From contig NC_058137.1 in the NCBI RefSeq assembly GCF_011075055.1, forward strand, positions 22,801,463 to 22,865,462: a stretch of 64,000 nt of DNA. Direction: 5' to 3'. Shown here in pieces: positions 5,299 through 39,475 of the stretch (position 1 is the first letter of the stretch; each line of letters begins with the position of its first letter). The notes under the pieces were generated by a model, which did not search any database, was not told the origin of the DNA, and saw only the letters and a list, made by a program, of their open reading frames with translations. The position numbers were made by a program, and so were the translations under genes. The stretch comes from Mangifera indica (lineage: Eukaryota; Streptophyta; Magnoliopsida; Sapindales; Anacardiaceae).

Positions 5299-7285
<1,987 letters not shown>

Positions 7286-11759: not shown

Positions 11760-11833
<74 letters not shown>

Positions 11834-13627
11834 GCATAAATAAATATAAATATATATATATATATAAAAATGCAAAAAAGGGCAAAAAGGGAAAAGAGAA
11901 AAAGAGAAAGAGATAAAGCTTTAGATATAAAGAGAAAGAGAAAACTTTTCCATCATTTTACATCTTCTCCCGTAAGAAACTCCAGCAGCCACCATTTTTC
12001 AGTTTTTTCCTTTGCTTGCTTGAAGAAAAAGGAAGGATTTGAGGGAGTTGGAAGATAAGAAAAGAAAAGAAAAGAAAATGAAGCACTTGGAAGCTTTTGT
12101 AACCAAAGATCTCCTTCCTTCTTCTTTCATCTATGTTTATATGCATGTTATGTGAATATGTTAGAGTGTTTTGGTATTGATTTAAAGTGATCTTGGTGAT
12201 AAAGGAAGCAAAACAAAGAGGAGGAAGCCAACTTTCAAAGATTTGGCTTAAAGCAAGGTAAGGGGTTTCCTCCTTGATATGTGATATGTTTTAGGGTTTT
12301 GGTTCCTTAGATCTATATTATATATGTTGATTTTGATGTTGAGGAATGTTGTTTTGCCATTTGGGATGTCTATGTATGTGATTTTGGTTCATGGCAGAAA
12401 GTTACAGAATATTTACAGTTTTTGCCACTGAGTTCGTCCCATGTTTTGGCTGCCTGATTGAATGAATTATGAGTGCTATTATAGGTCGTTGGAAAGATCT
12501 TTGAATCTTCTTTTCAACGATATATAGCTTGTATGAGTTAGAAACCGTTTGGGATGTTAAATTGTATGAAAAAGAAGGTTGCCCTGTTAAATGACTGTTC
12601 TGTGAACAGTGTTTCGCAATTCTGGGCAGGAAAGAAAGAAAGAAAGAAAGAAAAGGAAGAAGAAAGGAAAGAAAGGAAAGGAAAGGAAAGAAAAGAAGGA
12701 AAGAAAAAGAAAGAAAAAATAAGAAAAAGAATTTGGGACTCAAGATTTAGGGGTCGTCCCAAGAGTAATGTCTGGTGAGTTATGAATAAATTTAAATGGA
12801 AGCAAAATTAGTAAGATATAAGACCCGCATGCATGCTATAAACTATGAGGGGGCACTTTACACTACACCGCCCACAGTAGGGCACGTCCGCAGTAGGACA
12901 CGTCCGTAGTAGGACATAGACCCCCAGTAGGGTCCGCTCGCAGTAGAGCATGCTCGCAGTAGAGCTTAATTCAGAGTCAGAAATAGTGTAGTGAAAGAAA
13001 AAGAGCTTGAGCTTAAAAAAAAAAGTGCCAAATCCCTATAGTTAGCTTCCAGAAAGTATTAAATAGACACCAGATGGGACAAAGTATGACCCAAATAGTA
13101 AAGAGTGCACTAAATTACCCCCTCAATCTCTTATAGAGGTTAGGATGTGGGGTTGAGTCCCAAAAGTGAGTTAGAACAGGAAAAAAGGATAGTTTACTTA
13201 ATTTTTCCCCTTACTGAGTGTTCTAATCACTCACTCCCTTTTCTTTCCTGACTGCAGGTACAGGTGATCGAGGTAGCTGCGAGGCAGGGTCAGGTCAGCG
13301 TAGGTAGATCCGGCTGGAGCAGGTTATCTCTGGTTTATATTACATGCATACAGTAGCATGTTCTTATGGACCTTTGACTTTTGAGATTATGGTACAGTTA
13401 CATATGATTACTCCTTGTTTTCAGATACTTTCAGATGAGTCTTCATATGAGTATATACATCTTTTGTTCGCTTCCAGATTTTTAGTTTTCTTGGAATACT
13501 TCTTAAACACTTTTAATGATGCGTTTATTTTAAAGTATTTTTAAAAAGAAAAAAAAATAGACGCTACGAATATTAATTCGTAACATTTCTCCTTTGATGG
13601 GTAGTACTTCTAGGGAGGGATGTTACA
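11669..13627 (+). repeat. 3' LTR of gypsy element
   Basis: 1959 bp, nearly identical to the 5' LTR. Most of the length difference comes from a shorter (TA)n run (about 11764-11826). It ends GATGTTACA followed by the ATATG duplication. Confidence 0.95.
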
Positions 13628-19947: not shown

Positions 19948-21401
19948 ATGAACAACAAATCTGAGTTAGTCTTCATCCCTACACCAGGCGTCGGCCACCT
20001 TGTCTCCACCATTGAGCTGGCCAAGCTTCTCCTCCACCGCCACCACCGCCTCTCCATCACCGTCCTCGTCATGAAACTACCATCCGACTCTAAAATTAGT
20101 GCCTATCTTGACTCACTCTCTGTTGATGACCGTATCAACTTTGTTCATCTCCCCAACGATCACCTTCAAGGAATCAACCGCATCGGCGTCTTCACTTCTT
20201 TCATTGAATCGCATAAACCCCTCGTCAAAGAAGCTGTCTCTAAGCTTGTTCTCTCCGAGTCAGCCTCCGATGACTCACCTAAACTCGCTGGGTTTGTTCT
20301 TGACATGTTTTGCACAAGCATGATTGATGTTGCTGATGAGTTTGGAGTTCCAAGCTATATTTTCTTTACATCGGGTGCAGCTTTTCTGGGTTTGATGCTT
20401 CACTTGCAGGCTCTTCATGATGAGCAGAACAAACAAACTGTTGACTTGAAAGACTCGGATTCTGAATTGGAAGTACCGAGTCTCGTTAAGAAACTTCCTG
20501 CCAAGGTTTTGCCTTCTGTGTACTTCGAGAAAGAATGGCCTGTGATTATGTTTGAGCTGGCGAGGGGGTTCCGGAGAGTAAAGGGTATTGTTGTAAATTC
20601 GTTTATGGAGCTGGAATCTTTTGCCATCAAGTCGTTGTCTAGTAGTGAAGCCAACATCCCACCCGTTTATCCTGTGGGGCCCATTTTGAATCTTGACAGA
20701 AATAGCATCGACCAGAGTCAACTGAGTCCAAAACAAAAGCAGAAATCATCGAGTGGCTTGATGATCAACCACCGTCATCGGTTGTGTTTTTATGCTTCGG
20801 GAGCAAGGGAAGCTTTGAGGAGGATCAGGTGAAAGAGATTGCGTACGCGCTTGAACAGAGTGGGCATCGGTTCTTGTGGTCTCTTCGTCAACCTCCATCC
20901 AAGGGCCAGTTTGCTTCTCCAAGTGACTACACCAATCTAACAGACGTGTTGCCGGAAGGGTTTCTTGAACGAACAGTCGGGGTTGGAAAAGTAATCGGGT
21001 GGGCACCACAAGTGTCAGTGTTAGCCCACAAGGCGATCGGAGGGTTCGTATCGCATTGCGGATGGAATTCAACACTGGAGAGCATATGGTTTGGAGTTGC
21101 CATTGCCACATGGCCTATGCTCGCAGAGCAACAATTCAATGCGTTTGAGTTGGTGATTGAGTTGGGATCAGCTGTTGAAATTAAAATGGATTATAGGAAG
21201 GAGCTGTTGGCAGAGAATCGAATAGTGTTAAGGGCAGGGGAGATACAGAGAGGGATTAGGAAATTAATGGAGGATGATAATAAGATAAGAGAAAGAGTGG
21301 AGGAGATGAGCCAAAAGAGTAGAAAAGCTATGATGGATGGTGGATCTTCATTTACTTCATTGAGTTGCTCCATTGATGATGTCATGAGCAATTTGTCATA
21401 A
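19948..21401 (+). pseudogene. UGT3, UDP-glycosyltransferase broken by one-base deletion
   Basis: A full-length UGT71-like reading frame split by loss of one base at about 20712-20717, between the codons matching ILNLDGNCID and STESKTKAE of UGT4. Upstream of the break the frame gives a normal acceptor half (MNNKSELVF start, GVGHL, FVLDM). Downstream a different frame gives the complete donor half, with HCGWNS and AEQQ. Without that loss the length would match the family (484 residues). It carries GVAIATW where most UGTs have GVPI, as in UGT4. The first frame stops at 20832, which would leave a product without the PSPG box. The promoter looks intact, so it may still be transcribed. A sequencing or assembly error at this base is possible. 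Confidence 0.85.
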
Positions 21402-23686: not shown

Positions 23687-23997
23687 TGTTATAAAATTAA
23701 TGGCAAAGTAATTGACTTGCCAAATAAAATTATCAAGCCAAAGCACGGCAGAAGGAATAAAGAAACAAGAAGAAGCAGAAAGAAGCAGAAAGAAAGAAAG
23801 AATTGTGTGTAAAATAATAGAGAAAGGGGGGGGTTTATATAGCAGTTTGCCGCCTCCCTTTTTACCTATTACATTGACTAAAACCCATTTTATTTGCTTC
23901 TCCTGCGTCACCTTGCCATTTTCTTCTTGCTCTAATAAATGAATTCCCACTGCCTTTTTTGACTTGCTTTGGTGGAAAGCCACCTGACTTTATAACA
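23687..23997 (-). repeat. 3' LTR of copia element
   Basis: 311 bp with TGTTATAA/TTATAACA ends. It has an 8-G run where the other LTR has 22 G. Next to it inside the element (from 23998, plus-strand CTCCCCTTTGG) is the polypurine tract. Confidence 0.92.
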
Positions 23998-24287
23998 CTC
24001 CCCTTTGGATTTTCATCACTTACAGATAATTATATTAACCTTACTAAGAAAAAACCCAAATAGGATAAAAACTAAAGCAAAGGAATATAATTATTAAATA
24101 TCCTGTAAGTTGACGTTGAACATACTTAAACTGCCTCATTAAAAACCTTACTAAGAAAACTCAGTGAGACAAAACCTAGTGAAGGAAAAAAGAGTACAGT
24201 GCACCTTTTGTCCAATATTGGATAAACTTCAAAATTTTGCCTAATGAACGTTCCCCCTGATGAACGCTCCCCCTCTTTATAGTAGGA

Positions 24288-26156
24288 TTAACTTGGTTGC
24301 TTGTTGAGCAGCCGCATACCGATGTTATACACTAACTTCTCAAATGTTGATGTCGGTAGTGTCTTAGTGAACAAATCTGCAAGATTCTCACTGGATCTGA
24401 TTTGCTTGACATCAATCTTTTTACTCTGCTGGAGCTCATGAGTGTAAAAGAACTTCGGTGAGATATGTTTGGTTCTGTCTCCTTTGATGTACCCACCTTT
24501 AATTTGGGCTATATATGCTGCATTGTCTTCATATAATATGGAAGGAGTGTCTGTTGTAGAAGGAAGACTGCATGCATTCTGAATATAATGGATGACAGAC
24601 CGTAACCATATACATTCTCGGCTGGCTTCATGGAGAGCTAAAATTTCTGAATGATTTGAAGAAGTTGCAACCAAGGTCTGCTTGGTGGAGCGCCATGATA
24701 TAGTTGTGTCATTATAAGTAAAAACATATCCCGTTTGTGAACGGGTCTTATAGGGGTCAGAAAGATAACCAACATCTGCATATCCAACCAAACTAGGATT
24801 TTTAGGGGATTTGGCAGAATAGAATAATCTCAAATCTCTAGCCCCACATAGGTAACGGAGTATATGTTTGATTCCGTTCCAGTGACGACGGGTTGGTGCA
24901 GAGCTAAATCAGGCCAATAAATTAACTGCGAAGGATATATCCGGTCTCGTGCATTGGGCCAAATATAATAAGGCTCAAATGGCATTAAGATATGGTACTT
25001 CAAGACCAAGTATATTTTCATCTTCTTCTTTAGGACGAAATGAATCATTTTTTAGATCAAGAGACCGAACAACCATTGGGGTGCTCAAAGGATAAGCCTT
25101 ATCCATATTAAAACGTTTTAATAATTTTTCAATATACGCTGATTGATGGATAAGTATTCCATTTGAATTGTGTTCGATCTGCAGGTCGAGACAATATTTT
25201 GTTTTCCCCAAATCCTTCATTTCAAATTCTTTTTTCAGATATTCAGCAGTTTTTGAGAGCTCTTCAGGAGTCCCAATTAAATTCATGTCATCAACATAAA
25301 CTGCTACAATAGCAAATCCCGATTCTGACCTTCTGATAAAGACACATGGGCATATAGGGTCATTCACATAACCCTCTTTTTTCAAATATTCACTGAGGCG
25401 ATTGTACCACATACGTTCGGATTGTTTTAATCCGTACAATGATCGTTGTAATTTAATTGAGTACAAGCCTCTTGAATTGACACTTTTTGCTTCAGGTAAT
25501 TTGTATCCTTTAGGGAGTTTCATGTAAATTTCAGTGTCCAAATTTCCATATAAATAAGTAGTAACTACGTCCATTAGACGCATATCCAGTCCTTCAGAGA
25601 CTGTTAAACTGATTAAATATCTGAATGTGATTATATCCATTACAGGTGCATATGTTTCATCAAAGTCTATACCGGACCTTTGGGAAAAGCCTTGGGCTAC
25701 AAGCCTGGCTTTATATTTAGCAATTTCATTTTTCTCATTTCTTTTTCTCACAAATACCCATTTATATCCAACGGGTTGTACGTCTTGAGGTGTTGGAACT
25801 ACAGGCCCAAACACTTGACGTTTTGCTAGGGAAGCTAATTCTGTTTGAATTGCTTCTTCCCATTTAGGAGAATCATGTCTTTGTTTGCACTCAGCCACAG
25901 TACGTGACTCAAAATCATCATCATTCAGAATTTCAGTAGCTACTACAAATGAGAATATATCATCAACTATAATTGTTTCACGATTCCACATTTTTTGTGT
26001 ATGAACATAATTTAAAGATATTTCAATATTCTTATTTTCCTGTTCTTCAGGGGTTTGTGCCACTTCAGGGGCTTGTGCCACTTCAGGGGCTTGAGTCTCT
26101 TCAGGGACTATAACCTCTTCTGGAGAAATATTTGTTTGATTATTTGCCTTTCTTTT
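24288..26156 (-). pseudogene. copia reverse transcriptase and RNase H, broken
   Basis: RT from 26156 down to 24975 shows EEAIQTELASL, GYKWVFVRKR, KARLVAQGF, GIDFDETYAPV, SLYGLKQSERMWYNRL and the catalytic YVDD. RNase H (24833-24288) shows VGYADVGYLSDP, TISWRSTKQTLV, ILYEDNAA, TKHISPKFFY and a normal stop after LLNKQPS. The two are joined by a frameshifted segment at 24830-25050. The N-terminal linker has an 18-bp tandem repeat coding for APEVAQ (about 26046-26095). Confidence 0.9.
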
Positions 26157-27638
26157 TCAAGGAATAGTGTCCTTCGATCCAACAGGTCTACCACGCTTCT
26201 GGCGTGAGATAGATGGATCAGTCACGGCTCGAATGGACTGTTCAACAGTCACATTGATTCTTGCTGGTGTATTAGTAGCTGGAACATGTGATCTTGTCAC
26301 TTTTGCTGTATCAACAAATGCATCAGGCATTTGGTTGACAATAATTTGTAATCGCACTATCCTTTGCACTTCAGTTTCACTTTGGGATGTCCGAGGATTT
26401 AAATGAGACATGGTAGGTACATACCAAGTAAGTTCATGCCTAACTTCAGGAGACATTTTCTTTTCCCCTAAAGATGGGAAAGTTGTCTCATCAAAGTGAC
26501 AATCTGTAAATCGTGCAGTAAAAAGATCACCTGTTAATGGTTCCAGGTACTTAATAATGGATGGTGAATTATATCCAACATATATTCTCAAACGATGTTG
26601 GGGTCCCATTTTTGTGCATTGAGGGGATGCAATAAGGACATATACAGCACAACCAAATATTCTCAAATGAGATACATTAGGTTGGTAACCAAGAACCAAT
26701 TGTAGGGGAGAATATTGATGATAAGAAGAAGGTCACAAGCGAATTAACGCTGCAGCATGTAATATAGCATATCCCCACATAGAAGTAGGTAATTGACTTT
26801 TTAATAATAAAGTACGTGCAATTACCTGAAGTCGTTTTATAAGAGACTCAGCTAATCCATTCTGTGTGTGGACATGTGAGACTGGATGTTCAACCTCAAT
26901 CCCCATAGACATGCAATAATCATCAAATGTTTTGGATGTAAATTCACCAGCATTATCTAATCGTATTGACTTGATCGAATAATCTGCGAAATGTGCCTTT
27001 AATTTGATAATTTGTGCTAACAGTTTAGCAAATGCAACATTTCGAATAGGCAATAAACAAACATGAGACCATCGTGCAGATGCATCAATTAAGACCATAA
27101 AATAACGAAATGACCCACTTGGTGGGTGAATGGGTCCACATATATCCCCTTGAATCCTTTGCAGAAACGATGGGGATTCACCTCCAATTTTGGAGGGGGA
27201 TGGTCTTATTATTAATTTGCCTTGAGAACAGACGGTGCAAAATTGTTCACTAGACAATAAAATTTTATGATTCTGTAATGTATGCCCATGTGAATTTTCA
27301 ACAATCCTACGCATCATTGTAGATCATGGGTGGCCTAAACGATCATACCAAAGCATAAATGCTTTTGGATCAACGAACTTCTGGTTTGATACTGCGTAGG
27401 TCTCAATTGCCTTTATGATTGTATAATACAATCCAGATGATAAAGCAGGCAATTTTTCTAGTATAAGCCTTCTTCCGGAGGCATTACTAGTTATACAGAT
27501 GAATTCTGCACCATTTTCACTCATGGTTTCAAGATGATAACCATTTTTTCTTATATTTTTAAAACTTAGTAGATTTCTTCTGGATCTACTTGAATATAAT
27601 GCATCATTGATGCTTAATTTGGTCCCATTGTTTAACAT
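26157..27638 (-). pseudogene. copia integrase, broken
   Basis: GAG-pre-integrase part (27638-27324) with the HHCC finger split by a TGA at RLGHP|STMMRRI. The core (27317-26733) has catalytic Asp in GDICGPIHPP, Asp in RLDNAGEF and Glu in NGLAESLIK. The C-terminal part (26699-26157) includes the VSHLRIFGCAVYV segment and a VGYNSPSIIKYL domain. Stops at about 26730 and 26156 fit CGA-to-TGA changes. Confidence 0.9.
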
Positions 27639-27639
27639 A

Positions 27640-27830
27640 ATTGTGGCTCTTCCGGAGCCTTCTATCAGATCAATTGATCATGATATGGTGGTTACTTTAG
27701 CTTCAATTAATGCTAAAGCTAAGAAAAATTTCTTTTCTTTAAGAATTGTGTGCGTTGTTGCACTATCCACCAAACATATGTCTCCCACATCAGCTTTTGA
27801 AGTCAACGCTTCAATTTTGGAGTCCATTTC
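27640..27830 (-). pseudogene. copia protease remnant
   Basis: CLVDSATTHTIL (D-S-A in place of D-S-G) starts about 45 bases after an ATG at about 27825 and runs in frame toward GSGRATIMLNNGTKLS, with one stop. It is the N-terminal protease of this element type; no gag or zinc knuckle precedes it. Confidence 0.75.
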
Positions 27831-27982
27831 CTTTCATTTAAAAATTACGTTAGTTGTAACGTACACAAAATATTGAAAGGAAGAGAACATGACAATAAAA
27901 TATAAAATAATATGCATGACTCCAAAATAAATATATATGATGGATTTAATTATAAAAATTTTGGGCATTTCATACTCATAAT

Positions 27983-29216
27983 AACTACTTCTGGTAGTTG
28001 CGTTCACTTCAGGGAACGATGTATAATGAGAAAATATTAATTCAGAATTTCTTTTCTGATATTGCTACTACAGGAGCAAAAATAAAATGTGGAGAATATT
28101 TTATCTTCCACATTCAGGAAAAGATTCTGAATATTACAGAGTTATACTAAATATAGAGTCATTGTATTCATATTTCGGCTTGTAATCCTTCAGGGATATG
28201 ATGCCAAAAGATAATAGCCTTGTATTTGTCCTTCTGGGATATTTTATTTAGTTAGTTTTTCAAGGCTCACAAATTCTAGGTGGAGACTCATGCAAAAAGC
28301 CCATTTAATATTATCCATCTAATTTTAGGAACTTCAGGTTCAATTATTGTCATATTTACAAAACTTCTGGTTTTGTAAACAATATATATGAGTTAATCTT
28401 TGAAACTTCAGGTTCAAATATTATTTCATATTTACAAAACAGCTGATTTTGTAGGAGAAATATTGAGATTAATTTTGGAGGCTTCAGGTCCATATATTAT
28501 CCCATATATACAAAACTTCTGGTTTTGTAATTAGTTTTCAGAATATTATAATACGTATTCTGAGTATGTTTTGGACTTCAAGTCCATATTTTTCACACTT
28601 TATGCAAACTTCAGGTTGCAAAGGTGATATCATTATTAAAATAAAGACTTTGATGAAACTAGGGACTTCCGGCCCATATTTATGAAACTGGGGACTTCCG
28701 GCCCATAAACATGTATTCTCATGATTTTATAAACTTCAAGTTGTAAATCGTAAAACTCAGGACTTTGGGCCCATATATATGATTTTCTCACGATTTTACA
28801 AACTTCAGGTTGTAAATCGGATATAAATAAAAATAAAGATTCAAATAAATAAATATGCGAATAAATAAATATTCAAATAAATGGAATACAATAAAAATAA
28901 ATATTTAAATAATATCAGGACTTCCGGTCCAAATTCTTGGTTTTGTAAACTTCAGGTTACAAGTAATATTTATAACTTCAGGTCACAAATTTATAATTTC
29001 GTAAACTTCGGGTTACGAACGATATTCAGGATTTCAGATCCAAATTCATGATATTCAGGACTGCAGGTCCAGATTCATAATTTTGTAAACTTCAAGTTAC
29101 AAATAAGATTCAGAACTTTAGGTTCAAATTTATGATATTTCAGACTTCAGATCTAGATTCAAGAGTTTCAGGACTTCAGGTCCAGATTTACAATTTTGCA
29201 AACTTCGGGTTGCAAA
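27983..29216 (-). repeat. Array of about 28 covarying short hairpins in the copia leader
   Basis: Short imperfect palindromes recur every 20-60 bp. On the plus strand the loop is TTCAG or ACTTCAGG (variants TTCTG, TTCGG, TTCCG). The stems differ but stay complementary: TTTGTAA/TTACAAA (29082-29103), TTCGTAA/TTACGAA (28998-29019), TTTGCAA/TTGCAAA (29195-29216), TTTACAA/TTGTAAA (28795-28816), GGAC/GTCC (29171-29183), GGAT/ATCC (29029-29041), GAAC/GTTC (29113-29125), ATCC/GGAT (28187-28199), CGTTC/GAACG (28001-28018), AACTAC/GTAGTT (27983-27999). A 10-bp perfect stem lies at 28355-28379. The array occupies the place where gag would be expected. Confidence 0.85.
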
Positions 29217-29356
29217 TATTATATAATTATAAAGAAAAATTAAGCAGAAATATAACATAAATTAAAAGTCAACTGGGATATCATAACTGAGATATCCATA
29301 TTTATAATATTTAAGCAACATAACGGTATAATATAAATATATAATATATCTGAGCT

Positions 29357-29372
29357 GATCGTGCTGATAACG
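29357..29372 (-). other. Primer binding site of copia element
   Basis: On the minus strand the bases after the 5' LTR read CGTTATCAGCACGATC. They lie where a primer site should be and resemble those of other plant copia elements; the tRNA is not certain. Confidence 0.6.
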
Positions 29373-29690
29373 TGTTATAAAATTAATGGCAAAGTAATTG
29401 ACTTGCCAAATAAAATTATTAAGCCAAAGCACGGCAGAAGGAATAAAGAAACAAGAAGAAGCAGAAAGAAAGAAAGAATTGTGTGTAAAATAATAGAGAA
29501 AGGGGGGGGGGGGGGGGGGGGGGTGGTTTATATAGCAGTTTGCCGCCTCCCTTTTTACCTAATACATTGGCTAAAACCCATTTTATTTGCTTCTCCTGCG
29601 TCACCTTGCCATTTTCTTCTTGCTCTAATAAACGAATTCCCACTGCCTTTTTTGACTTGCTTTGGTGGAAAGCCACCTGACTTTATAACA
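29373..29690 (-). repeat. 5' LTR of copia element
   Basis: 318 bp, nearly identical to 23687-23997 except for a 22-G run near 29502-29523 and a few substitutions. Confidence 0.92.
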
Positions 29691-30310
29691 ATGCTTACCT
29701 AATTAAGGGTTTTTTCAAATTTTTCATATATTTAAAGGGTGAAAAGGGGAGATTTGAGATAATTCTTTACAACAGGAAGAAAAGTTAGAATTGGTCTTTT
29801 CAAATTTTGTAGAGCGTAGTATTATACGTATAAAATTTATGTATAAAAAAATTACATAAACTAATATAACAATTATTTAATAGAGATAATATGATAGTAT
29901 TAATATATGACAAATAATAAAATATTATCATATCATTATTATATTAGTCTGTTTAATTATTTTATGCATATAATATTATTATTTTATAAATTTGATTGAA
30001 AAATGTTTATATGCATCCAATAAAAATTTTGAACCTGACTTGGCTAATAATTCAAGTGGTTCTTAAAAATTCAATAAAATAATACATCAAACAATATTTT
30101 ATTTATATACATATATATTTTACATAATTTAAATATATAAATAATATATCATCATATAATTAAATATTATTTTATCTTTAATTTAAAATCATATAATAAT
30201 ATATCGTTTATATATATAAATTATGCACACATAATTTTATTAAATTATATTACAAAGGAGAACCACATGCACCTTAATTTCTCTTGGCCAAAAGACTTTT
30301 TCCCACTCAA
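29691..30310. other. AT-rich intergenic DNA
   Basis: No gene or clear repeat seen between the copia element and the foldback upstream of UGT4. Confidence 0.5.
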
Positions 30311-30312
30311 TG

Positions 30313-31016
30313 TGTAATACCCTTAACTTTCAAAAATCTAAATACCTACTTATAATACCATTTTTATTAAAAATCTTAATTAGGGTTAATAATTATTTAA
30401 TCAAAAAATTAAAAAACTAAATTTTATCACATTCTCCCTTCAATTTGAAAATCTCATAATTTTTCTCTCAAAATTTCTTTCAAAGTTTGAAAAGTGGCAT
30501 TTTTCCCCAAAGATTTTTTTCCCTTTTCCCCAATGAAGATCTGCCTTCTTTGACCGTTAGTTGTCCTCCTTCCTATCTTATCTCTCCCTCTAGGTCTCTC
30601 TCTCTTTTCTCTTTGGCCATGAATAGATGAAAATCGTCTGAAAATCTATACAATTTTTATCTTTTGAAAATCCAAAAGAAAGTCAATTGGATTTTCAAAC
30701 AAAAATCGTCTGGATTTTCAAAATCCAGACGATTTTTGTCAATCTATGGCCATAAAAAAAAGGAAGAGAAACTAAGACGCAGGATGGCTAATGACTAGAG
30801 ATGACAGATCTTCGTTAGAGAAAAAAGAAAAAAATCTTAGAGGAAAATTATTATTTTTCAAATTTTTTGTAGAAGAAATTACACTTGGGAAAAAAATGTG
30901 ATAAATTTTTAATTTTTTAAATTTTTTTAGTAAGTAATGATTTTACCCTAATCCTAATACATAAATTATCTCATGGGGGTGTATTTGAATTTTTCAAAAT
31001 CAAAGGGGAGTATTAA
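30313..31016. mobile_element. Foldback/MITE-like inverted repeat upstream of UGT4
   Basis: The left end TAATACCC...TTTCAAAAATCTAAATAC is mirrored at the right end (reverse complement TAATACTCCCC...TTGAAAAATTCAAATAC), with further imperfect pairing inward. The centre holds a perfect inverted pair around GTCTGGATTTTC / GAAAATCCAGAC at 30708-30731. No coding. It ends about 170 bp before the UGT4 ATG. A similarly organised element precedes UGT5. Confidence 0.6.
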
Positions 31017-31182: not shown

Positions 31183-32637
31183 ATGAACAACAAATTTGAG
31201 TTAGTCTTCATTCCTGCACCAGGCGTCGGCCACCTTGTCTCCATCATGGAGCTGGCCAAGCTTCTCATCCACCGCCACCACCGCCTCTCCATCACCGTCC
31301 TCGTCATGAAAGTACCGTCAGACTCTAAAAGTAATGCCTATCTCGACTCACTCTCTGTCGATAACCGTGTCAACATTGTTTATCTCCCCAACGATGACCT
31401 TCAACGATTCAAACCCATGCGCGTCATCCCTTCTATCATTGAATTGCATAAACCCCTCTTCAAAGAAGCTGTCTCTAAGCTTGTTCTCTCCAAGTCAGCC
31501 TCCGATGACTCACCTAAACTCGTTGGGTTTGTTCTCGACATGTTTTGCACAAGCATGATTGATGTTGCTGATGAGTTTGGAGTTCCAAGCTATATTTTCT
31601 TTACAACGGGTGCAGCTTTGCTGGGTTTGATGCTTCACTTGCAGGCTCTTCATGATGAGCAGAACAAACAAACTGTTGATTTGAAAGACTCGGATTCTGA
31701 ATTGGAAGTACCGAGTCTCGTCAACAAACTTCCTGCTAAGGTTTTGCCTTCTGTGTACTTCGGGGAAGAATGGTCTATGGTTATGTTTGAGCTAGCGAGG
31801 GCGTTCCGAAGAGTAAAAGGTATTCTTGTAAATTCGTTTGTGGAGCTGGAATCTTTTGCCGTCAAGTCTTTGTCTAGTGGTGAAGACAACATCCCACCCG
31901 TTTATCCTGTGGGGCCCATTTTGAATCTTGATGGTAATTGCATCGATTTGGAATCAACTGAGTCCAAAACAAAAGCAGAAATCATCGAGTGGCTTGATGA
32001 TCAACCACCGTCATCGGTTGTGTTTTTATGCTTCGGGAGCGAGGGAAGCTTTGAGGAGGATCAGGTGAAAGAGATTGCGTACGCGCTTGAACAGAGTGGG
32101 CATCGGTTCTTGTGGTCTCTTCGTCAACCTCCATCCAAGGGCCAGTTTGCTTCTCCAAGTGACTACACTAATCTAACAGACGTGTTACCGGAAGGGTTTC
32201 TTGAACGAACAGCCGGGGTTGGAAAAGTAATCGGGTGGGCGCCACAAGTGTCGGTGTTAGCCCACAAGGCGATCGGAGGATTCTTATCGCATTGTGGATG
32301 GAATTCAACACTGGAGAGCATATGGTTTGGAGTTGCCATTGCCACATGGCCTATGTATGCAGAGCAACAATTCAATGCGTTTGAGTTGGTGATTGAGTTA
32401 GGATCAGCTGTTGAAATTAAAATGGATTATAGGAAGGAGTTGTCGACGGAGAATCAAATAGTGTTAAGGGCAGGGGAGATAGAGAGAGGGATTAGGAAAT
32501 TGATGGAGGACGATAATAAGATAAGGGAAAGAGTGAAGGAGATGCGCGAAAAGAGTAGAAAAGCTATGATGGATGGTGGATCTTCATTTACTTCATTGGG
32601 TTGCTTCATTGATGATGTTATGAGCAATTTGTCATAA
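31183..32637 (+). CDS. UDP-glycosyltransferase UGT4 (UGT71-like)
   Basis: Intact single-exon gene of 484 residues, the full-length partner of UGT3. Catalytic His17 (GVGHL) and Asp119 (FVLDM). The PSPG box runs from Trp352 to Gln395 with HCGWNS at 370-375; the AEQQ ending suggests UDP-glucose. Ala385 (FGVAIATW) replaces the nearly invariant Pro at PSPG position 34, as in UGT3. The start was set at the first ATG, in a CAATG context shared with UGT3; a TTG-initiated extension upstream is not credible. Promoter and 3' flank match UGT3 for about 1.8 kb, showing a local gene duplication distinct from the A/B block event. Confidence 0.95.
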   Translation: MNNKFELVFIPAPGVGHLVSIMELAKLLIHRHHRLSITVLVMKVPSDSKSNAYLDSLSVDNRVNIVYLPNDDLQRFKPMRVIPSIIELHKPLFKEAVSKLVLSKSASDDSPKLVGFVLDMFCTSMIDVADEFGVPSYIFFTTGAALLGLMLHLQALHDEQNKQTVDLKDSDSELEVPSLVNKLPAKVLPSVYFGEEWSMVMFELARAFRRVKGILVNSFVELESFAVKSLSSGEDNIPPVYPVGPILNLDGNCIDLESTESKTKAEIIEWLDDQPPSSVVFLCFGSEGSFEEDQVKEIAYALEQSGHRFLWSLRQPPSKGQFASPSDYTNLTDVLPEGFLERTAGVGKVIGWAPQVSVLAHKAIGGFLSHCGWNSTLESIWFGVAIATWPMYAEQQFNAFELVIELGSAVEIKMDYRKELSTENQIVLRAGEIERGIRKLMEDDNKIRERVKEMREKSRKAMMDGGSSFTSLGCFIDDVMSNLS

Positions 32638-39200: not shown

Positions 39201-39475
39201 CTAAGATAAAGATAATAATTAAATTATTATCTATTATATTATTGTTAATAAATATTTTATTCATCAAATAAAATAATATAAATAAAAAATATATATTATC
39301 ATGATATTTTTAATAAACCGAACAAAAATTAAATTATTAAAGTACTCTTCATTGGCTTACACGAGACGGCTTTGATTCATAACCCTTGTAATCAGTCAAT
39401 ATTGAAGTTGTTCTGCAACTTCGAAGTTTGAATCTTCGCAGTTTGACTCTTCAATCTAGATTGTTGACTATTAGA
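36275..39475. other. Block B intergenic region
   Basis: AT-rich DNA colinear with block A 2446-2738, 4925-5293 and 13633-16674. It holds a reduced copy of the hAT transposase relic (about 36.9-37.35 kb, minus strand). The ORF at 38737-38970 has a block A twin at 15950 but looks like AT-rich chance coding. Confidence 0.55.

Follow-up and report, generated by a model that had tools for sequence, protein, structure and literature searches.

In MS2 and other single-stranded RNA (ssRNA) viruses, multiple packaging signals are dispersed along the genome, and their contacts with the capsid protein have been demonstrated (PMC6281560). In barley, the retrotransposon BARE2 is defective in gag and is packaged in the particles of its relative BARE1 (PMC3735527). 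Little is known of how the RNA of plant long terminal repeat (LTR) retrotransposons is selected for particles, or of how gene-less relatives enter them. Here, we analyzed a window of 64,000 nucleotides (nt) from mango (Mangifera indica; NC_058137.1, positions 22,801,463 to 22,865,462), which contains a Ty1/copia element of putative Bianca type that lacks gag. The stretch from its primer-binding site (PBS) to pol, where gag is expected, is filled by an array of short hairpins sharing the pentaloop YNGAA. We propose that these hairpins are a dispersed packaging or assembly signal bound by Gag, which has been multiplied in a Gag-dependent subfamily. We place the probability of this reading, with Gag as the presumed reader, at about 0.55. 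All results come from this one genome.

The array resembles the packaging signals of ssRNA viruses in that many stem-loops along the RNA, coding sequence included, share one loop motif on variable stems. It differs in that the carrier is an LTR retrotransposon, and in that capsid contacts are shown in the viruses whereas the reader in mango is presumed. Like BARE2, the mango element is a copia element, cannot make Gag, and would multiply with a gag-carrying relative. However, in BARE2 a deletion removed the start codon of gag, while the mango element lost most of gag and the remains carry hairpins. The word "hairpin" is absent from the main text of the BARE2 paper (PMC3735527).

The array is real and RNA-like, and is not the outcome of decay. 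The window holds 12 copies of the octamer ACTTCAGG, where 1.85 are expected and the highest count in 100 shuffles is 8; of the 12 copies, 8 fall inside the array. A preliminary description had noted about 28 small palindromes with a near-constant loop and stem variants such as TTTGTAA/TTACAAA and GGAC/GTCC, and these were found in the array. We listed by hand 29 hairpins at sequences that nearly match the octamer. Of these, 27 have four or more pairs when G-U is counted and one mismatch is allowed; the weak ones are at 28488 (one pair) and 28237 (three). Under the strict definition of a YNGAA loop with at least four perfect pairs, there are 16 hairpins rather than 28. Counting perfect stems of 6 bp or longer that enclose loops of 3-9 likewise gives 16, against 4.2 (standard deviation (sd) 2.2) in 200 shuffles. 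The pentaloop is closed by C-G in most units. The loop had been described as TTCAG on the plus strand; it is of the CTGAA type, because the RNA of the element corresponds to the minus strand.

To assess the stems, we picked sites by the loop alone, ignoring the arms, and exchanged the 3' arms among sites. This test replaced a first arm swap, which had used the hand-listed units and their best registers. At 44 YNGAA sites, stems built from a site's own arms sum to 110 bp. Swapping lowers this sum to 33.0 (sd 6.4), and none of 20,000 swaps was as high. Across the 27 loop classes represented by 15 or more sites, YNGAA had a z of 11.8 and the runner-up 2.1. The opposite strand of the array has six YNGAA sites, without an arm-match signal.

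One stem pair was followed genome-wide. GGAC/GTCC was found 107 times, GAAC/GTTC 184 times, the G-U form GGAC/GTTC 40 times and the A-C form GAAC/GTCC 15 times; backward-pattern controls gave 6, 10, 5, and 5 in the same order. The arms are strongly non-independent (odds ratio 33), and the G-U form is commoner than the A-C form (p 0.001); the p-values are overstated because the copies are related. Since a hairpin is a palindrome, neutral change would be expected to yield G-U and A-C equally, and the ratio of 40:15 suggests that the sense RNA is read. In 45 distinct gag-less arrays, states present in at least three copies were G-U in 22 cases and A-C in 11, and those present in one or two copies were G-U in 21 and A-C in 34 (Fisher p 0.015). 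L056, L062, L063, L065, and 11 duplicates had been left out of the array set ahead of any counting. We consider it very probable that the hairpins are selected as sense RNA.

These results bear on whether the array needs any function at all. Template-switch correction of imperfect palindromes yields matching arms by itself, and together with tandem duplication it could have produced the array unselected during replication; tandem repetition is evident in part of the array, with periods of 29, 56, 69, 76, and 84 bp. Such a process does not predict a fixed loop, a single strand, or G-U over A-C. Nor does it predict the YNGAA loops in gag remnants or the excess of pol hairpins over synonymous shuffles described below, and we regard it as quite improbable. 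A self-spreading palindrome, which had also been suggested, is disfavored by the single loop orientation, the hairpins in coding sequence, and the origin of remnant loops via point changes.

The motif could instead act at the DNA level, as palindromic binding sites or small-RNA targets. A dimeric DNA site is expected to retain its half-sites and vary its spacer. The array does the opposite, retaining the center and varying the arms, and the preference for G-U over A-C is seen in the sense RNA. Palindromic repeats are known in noncoding parts of plant copia elements, and the high-copy palindromic boxes of Sirevirus LTRs resemble the array in this respect (PMC2829016). In the parts of that paper used here, the boxes lie in LTRs (some beside env), mostly have a CGG-CCG core with intervening bases, and are framed as cis-acting DNA and CpG islands. 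The mango array is located in the leader, between the PBS and pol, and not in the LTR, and its core is of the CTGAA type. A DNA-level role is therefore, in our view, very improbable.

We searched the genome with a piece of pol and obtained 150 matches (the best 150 of 977 candidates scored), 30 of which were taken as loci. The array is present in 25 of these, and four have gag-type frames directly before pol (two broken by stops); L051 is ambiguous. In 11 of the 30, the open pol frame spans 1000 residues or more. The gag-type frame matches Retrotran_gag_2 just below cut-off and a zinc knuckle above cut-off. Whether gag-carrying relatives share the array had been raised as a question in the preliminary description. 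They exist, have the same PBS as the gag-less copies, and carry a shorter hairpin run that reaches the gag ATG, to which a stem with the loop CTGCA extends. A full gag-less array has 12-22 YNGAA hairpins of four or more pairs (median 17; 13.0 per kb; 26 arrays), whereas the last 620 nt of 22 gag-carrying leaders hold 2-7 (7.1 per kb), the top count being 7. Twenty gag-carrying leaders were hand-picked from a list of 130 matches, and L090 and L100 were left out before the counts. Of 67 pairs in the gag-carrying leaders, 7 show double changes; slid controls gave 0-2. Among 12 more distant copies, hand-picked from a list of 150 matches, 10 show similarity to the array (two of them with near-complete gag) and two have neither array nor gag. 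At L008, L021, L022, L031, and L051, a second array copy lies nearby in opposite orientation, representing nested or inverted insertions within the family.

The earlier placement of the array at the position of gag was upheld. Its pol-proximal end contains decayed gag pieces, which persist at 27981-28249 with broken frames. At three places in these remnants, YNGAA was found in 0/12, 0/12, and 0/12 gag-carrying copies and in 17/18, 17/18, and 18/20 gag-less copies. A fourth place has YNGAA in both classes (10/11 gag-carrying and 19/20 gag-less), and a fifth, at 28074, retains a hairpin whose loop is CTGTA, outside the YNGAA pattern. When random mutation of the gag-carrying pieces was simulated, no more than 2 in 10,000 runs reached the observed number of hairpins under any of the eight settings; this null covers the window copy and its still-alignable pieces, which favors retained hairpins. 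The fourth site encodes FPEVN. Among 1947 Gag homologues found at E up to 1e-10, the 120 best-listed (P0001-P0120) include 105 with the tolerant motif [FL]PE[VATS]N. In gag codons, there is one strict YNGAA hairpin against 0.10 in synonymous shuffles (191 of 2000 reach it). The class YNGNA gives 4 against 0.27 (0 of 2000), but was chosen post hoc and is not counted as evidence.

Hairpins of the same type are also found within pol. Outside the array, the minus strand of the window has 604 YNGAA sites and 16 hairpins with at least four pairs, against five on the plus strand. This minus-strand excess, 6 of the 16 being in pol, led us to test pol against synonymous shuffles, with the loop already defined from the array. 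Pol has six such hairpins of at least 4 bp, where synonymous-codon shuffles average 0.90 and none of 1000 has as many, and six other loop classes in pol showed no excess over such shuffles. In five comparable pol hairpins, the loop is kept in 27-29 of the 30 copies, gag-carrying copies included. The 18-bp repeats in pol also contain the octamer, as had been stated. The other 10 minus-strand hairpins with at least four pairs lie beyond array and pol (for example, at 39415, 30721, and 14915). Compensated stem changes had previously been read as a sign of selection on structure, and this is now well supported by the covariation of the arms, the loop states in the gag remnants, and the hairpins in pol codons.

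A much smaller element carries the hairpins as well. The locus L109 (G000:C9:634900-635500), found via the PBS pattern, consists of a tandem unit of ~194 bp with an LTR end, a PBS, and a G-tract. Each unit has as many as three YNGAA hairpins, on unrelated stems. In one unit, two of them have stems of 4 bp or longer, where shuffles average 0.0085 (0 of 2000 as high). We found 134 matches, tandem and dispersed, over many contigs (the best 40 of 173 candidates scored). From its sequence, the unit looks like a terminal-repeat retrotransposon in miniature (TRIM) with a Bianca PBS. It resembles tandem TRIMs of the Cassandra type, which are coding-free LTR units in tandem with a PBS (PMC7215508). They differ in that Cassandra has 5S sequence, whereas the mango unit has a half-tRNA-Ile-type PBS and YNGAA hairpins. 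The hairpins in gag-carrying relatives, in pol, and in this mini-element go beyond the preliminary description.

We compared pol between the classes using averages over 25 gag-less copies and four gag-carrying copies, the latter selected through likeness to the pol piece; L051 was left out. Identity between the classes is 0.82-0.86 in the first 200 bases of pol and then 0.94-0.97 up to position 2000. Past base 200, it is about the level found inside each class. In one pair of gag-carrying and gag-less copies, identity is 0.94-0.99 down to 24265, roughly the end of pol, and 0.93-0.85 beyond, and the LTR barely aligns (~0.5). A common pol with distinct leaders and LTRs is the pattern expected from recombination in shared particles. 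It points to template switching in such particles, which would have occurred at least once. In an unrooted tree of the 30 pol stretches, the four gag-carrying rows fall on one branch (100/100) and L051 is on a very long branch. The ratio of nonsynonymous to synonymous substitutions in gag-less pol is 0.16-0.87 (28 pairs from eight copies chosen for open frames). By these ratios, pol is under purifying selection while gag has been lost, which fits an element that would depend on Gag from elsewhere. Gene blocks are likewise exchanged between autonomous and non-autonomous elements in Athila (PMC2410132). Athila is a different element group, and most of its non-autonomous families are without pol, unlike the mango element.

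Under the proposed reading, the array would be the densest part identified here of a family-wide code in sense RNA, made of short stem-loops with a YNGAA pentaloop and exchangeable stems. Most probably, Bianca Gag reads the loop through its capsid portion or its zinc knuckle, and the hairpins would serve as a dispersed signal for packaging or assembly. Gag-carrying elements, which we infer to be the ancestral state, have a hairpin run in the leader and single hairpins in coding sequence. The gag-less subfamily, which retains pol and has more and denser leader hairpins, would depend on Gag from these relatives, and former gag pieces would have turned into extra hairpins after gag was lost; more hairpins would presumably mean better packaging. 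Gag is the likeliest reader because the gag-carrying element, the gag-less pol carrier, and the gene-free unit all need to enter particles, because dispersed signals of RNA viruses look alike, and because BARE2 sets a precedent for gag-defective packaging. A packaging signal allowing use of a partner had been among the earlier suggestions, and it is the best fit, on evidence drawn from sequence. More tentatively, and at somewhat less than even odds, YNGAA on arbitrary stems could be a loop-coded packaging language serving autonomous, gag-less pol-carrying, and gene-free elements alike, in which freed gag codons became hairpins and the parasite out-tags its provider.

The hairpins could instead bind a host RNA-binding protein that acts in export, stability, or routing to P-bodies or stress granules. 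This is the main rival. It accounts equally for the hairpins of gag-carrying, gag-less, and mini-elements and for the bias to sense RNA. By itself, it leaves unexplained the extra hairpins and the reuse of gag remnants in the gag-less subfamily, and we consider it unlikely. The hairpins might also aid translation by cap-independent entry, shunting, or start-site choice, of gag in gag-carrying and of pol in gag-less elements, given that the leader is filled with hairpins up to the start codon and that the CTGCA-loop stem abuts the gag ATG. However, hairpins also occur within pol and in the ~194-bp unit, which is too small for such a gene, making this explanation improbable.

Several observations weigh against Gag-read packaging signals. 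The predicted hairpins are weak (mean -3.2 kcal/mol over 27 hairpins), which also leaves the earlier suggestion of a nuclease-resistant leader unsupported. In folding against shuffles, the z for 28300-29216 is only -2.98 on 20 shuffles, a weak point, and the antisense strand folds equally well (pair probability 0.50 sense and 0.49 antisense). Double changes between gag-less copies are few, at 8 of 168 pairs compared with 0-3 in slid controls. In the set of 45 gag-less copies, stems and loops are no less variable than spacers (p 0.18 and 0.98), and the gag-carrying leaders show no G-U excess (34 vs 46 cells). The genome-wide G-U and A-C counts derive from kin copies and hence are not independent. 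Many gag-carrying copies are old and decayed, with stops in most of those listed; decay lowers their hairpin count, so age may explain part of the contrast with gag-less arrays, which is weakened accordingly. Another ~194-bp unit has just one hairpin with at least four pairs (10 of 2000 shuffles reach one). The high pol identity was partly chosen, as the gag-carrying copies were selected by pol likeness; the sharp rise at base 200 is less easily ascribed to this selection, though the query piece starts near there. Finally, a single old recombination explains the shared pol as well as ongoing co-packaging does. The packaging reading has the merit that a short loop motif can be tested with purified protein and 20-base RNAs. 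If true, it would help to predict the provider that a given non-autonomous element uses and would extend the idea of dispersed packaging signals from RNA viruses to retrotransposons.

The features of the element are given in Table 1. Its 5-bp flanks are nearly alike, and its two LTRs show five differences in 301 aligned columns (one at the alignment edge), plus 28 gap columns. A G-tract in the LTRs, at 29503-29524 with a counterpart near 23830, is far longer in the 5' than in the 3' LTR. The pol start, where we take the DSATTHT motif to be protease-like, had no match in a Pfam search. Genome-wide, the PBS occurs in 211 exact copies (control 0). Its complement with a wobble A, the expected tRNA-arm pattern, gave 13 pattern matches (control 0). 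The Bianca lineage has a PBS complementary to an edited half-tRNA-Ile, and its gag and pol form two open reading frames (ORFs) separated by a gap with a mean of 172 bp (Neumann et al., PMC6317226). In the gag-carrying relatives L054 and L055, ~90 bp separate the two open frames. By its PBS type and the two-ORF layout of these relatives, we classify the element as Bianca-type Ty1/copia.

Table 1 Features of the gag-less mango element and its hairpins (window coordinates).
Feature	Coordinates	Strand	Basis or remark
Bianca-type Ty1/copia element without gag (putative)	23687..29690	-	6004 bp; LTR ends TGTTATAAAGTC...TTTTATAACA; flanks ATACT/ATGCT; Pfam RVT_2 and rve
5' LTR	29373..29690	-	LTR alignment
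PBS CGTTATCAGCACGA, half-tRNA-Ile type	29359..29372	-	directly behind 5' LTR
Array of YNGAA-type hairpins	27983..29216	-	27 of 29 listed units with at least 4 pairs
gag remnant A	28174..28249	-	two hairpins, loops starting 28236 and 28193; 28236 hairpin only 3 pairs in window copy
gag remnant C	28033..28114	-	hairpin around 28067-28074, loop CTGTA, not YNGAA
gag remnant D	27981..28021	-	two hairpins; 38/41 bases identical to a gag-carrying copy
pol start, presumed protease-like DSATTHT piece	27681..27833	-	no Pfam match
pol hairpin GGCTC-CGGAA-GAGCC	27645..27659	-	YNGAA loop in 27/30 copies
pol piece, Pol_BBD and gag_pre-integrs	27327..27677	-	Pfam, both under curated cut-off
Integrase core (rve)	26736..27323	-	Pfam
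pol hairpin GACTG-TTGAA-CAGTC	26236..26250	-	YNGAA loop in 29/30 copies
pol hairpin CACGC-CAGAA-GCGTG	26192..26206	-	YNGAA loop in 28/30 copies
pol 18-bp repeats GCC-CCTGAAGT-GGC and adjoining hairpin at 26104	26045..26106	-	
Reverse transcriptase (RVT_2)	24975..26156	-	Pfam
3' LTR	23687..23997	-	LTR alignment

A search of Rfam with 27800-29700 of the window at E up to 1 matched none of 4227 families. The array was not reported in the open-licence literature searched (titles and abstract openings), among the matches listed. Plasmid and phage collections gave no match, and neither the reverse transcriptase piece nor two leader patterns matched in a viral contig collection. A further pattern led to a single viral contig (L001), which resembles a phage gene and was rejected as a chance match.

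The element lies between the two copies of a tandem gene duplication ~11.2 kb apart (20000-21014 and 31235-32250), glycosyltransferase-like by eye. Another tandem duplication is indicated by an identical tandem-repeat set present twice, ~6.4 kb apart, at 5395-6574 and 11765-12965. A large imperfect inverted repeat at 30482-30866 resembles a miniature inverted-repeat transposable element, with 102-nt arms and a perfect 20-bp core at 30699-30739.
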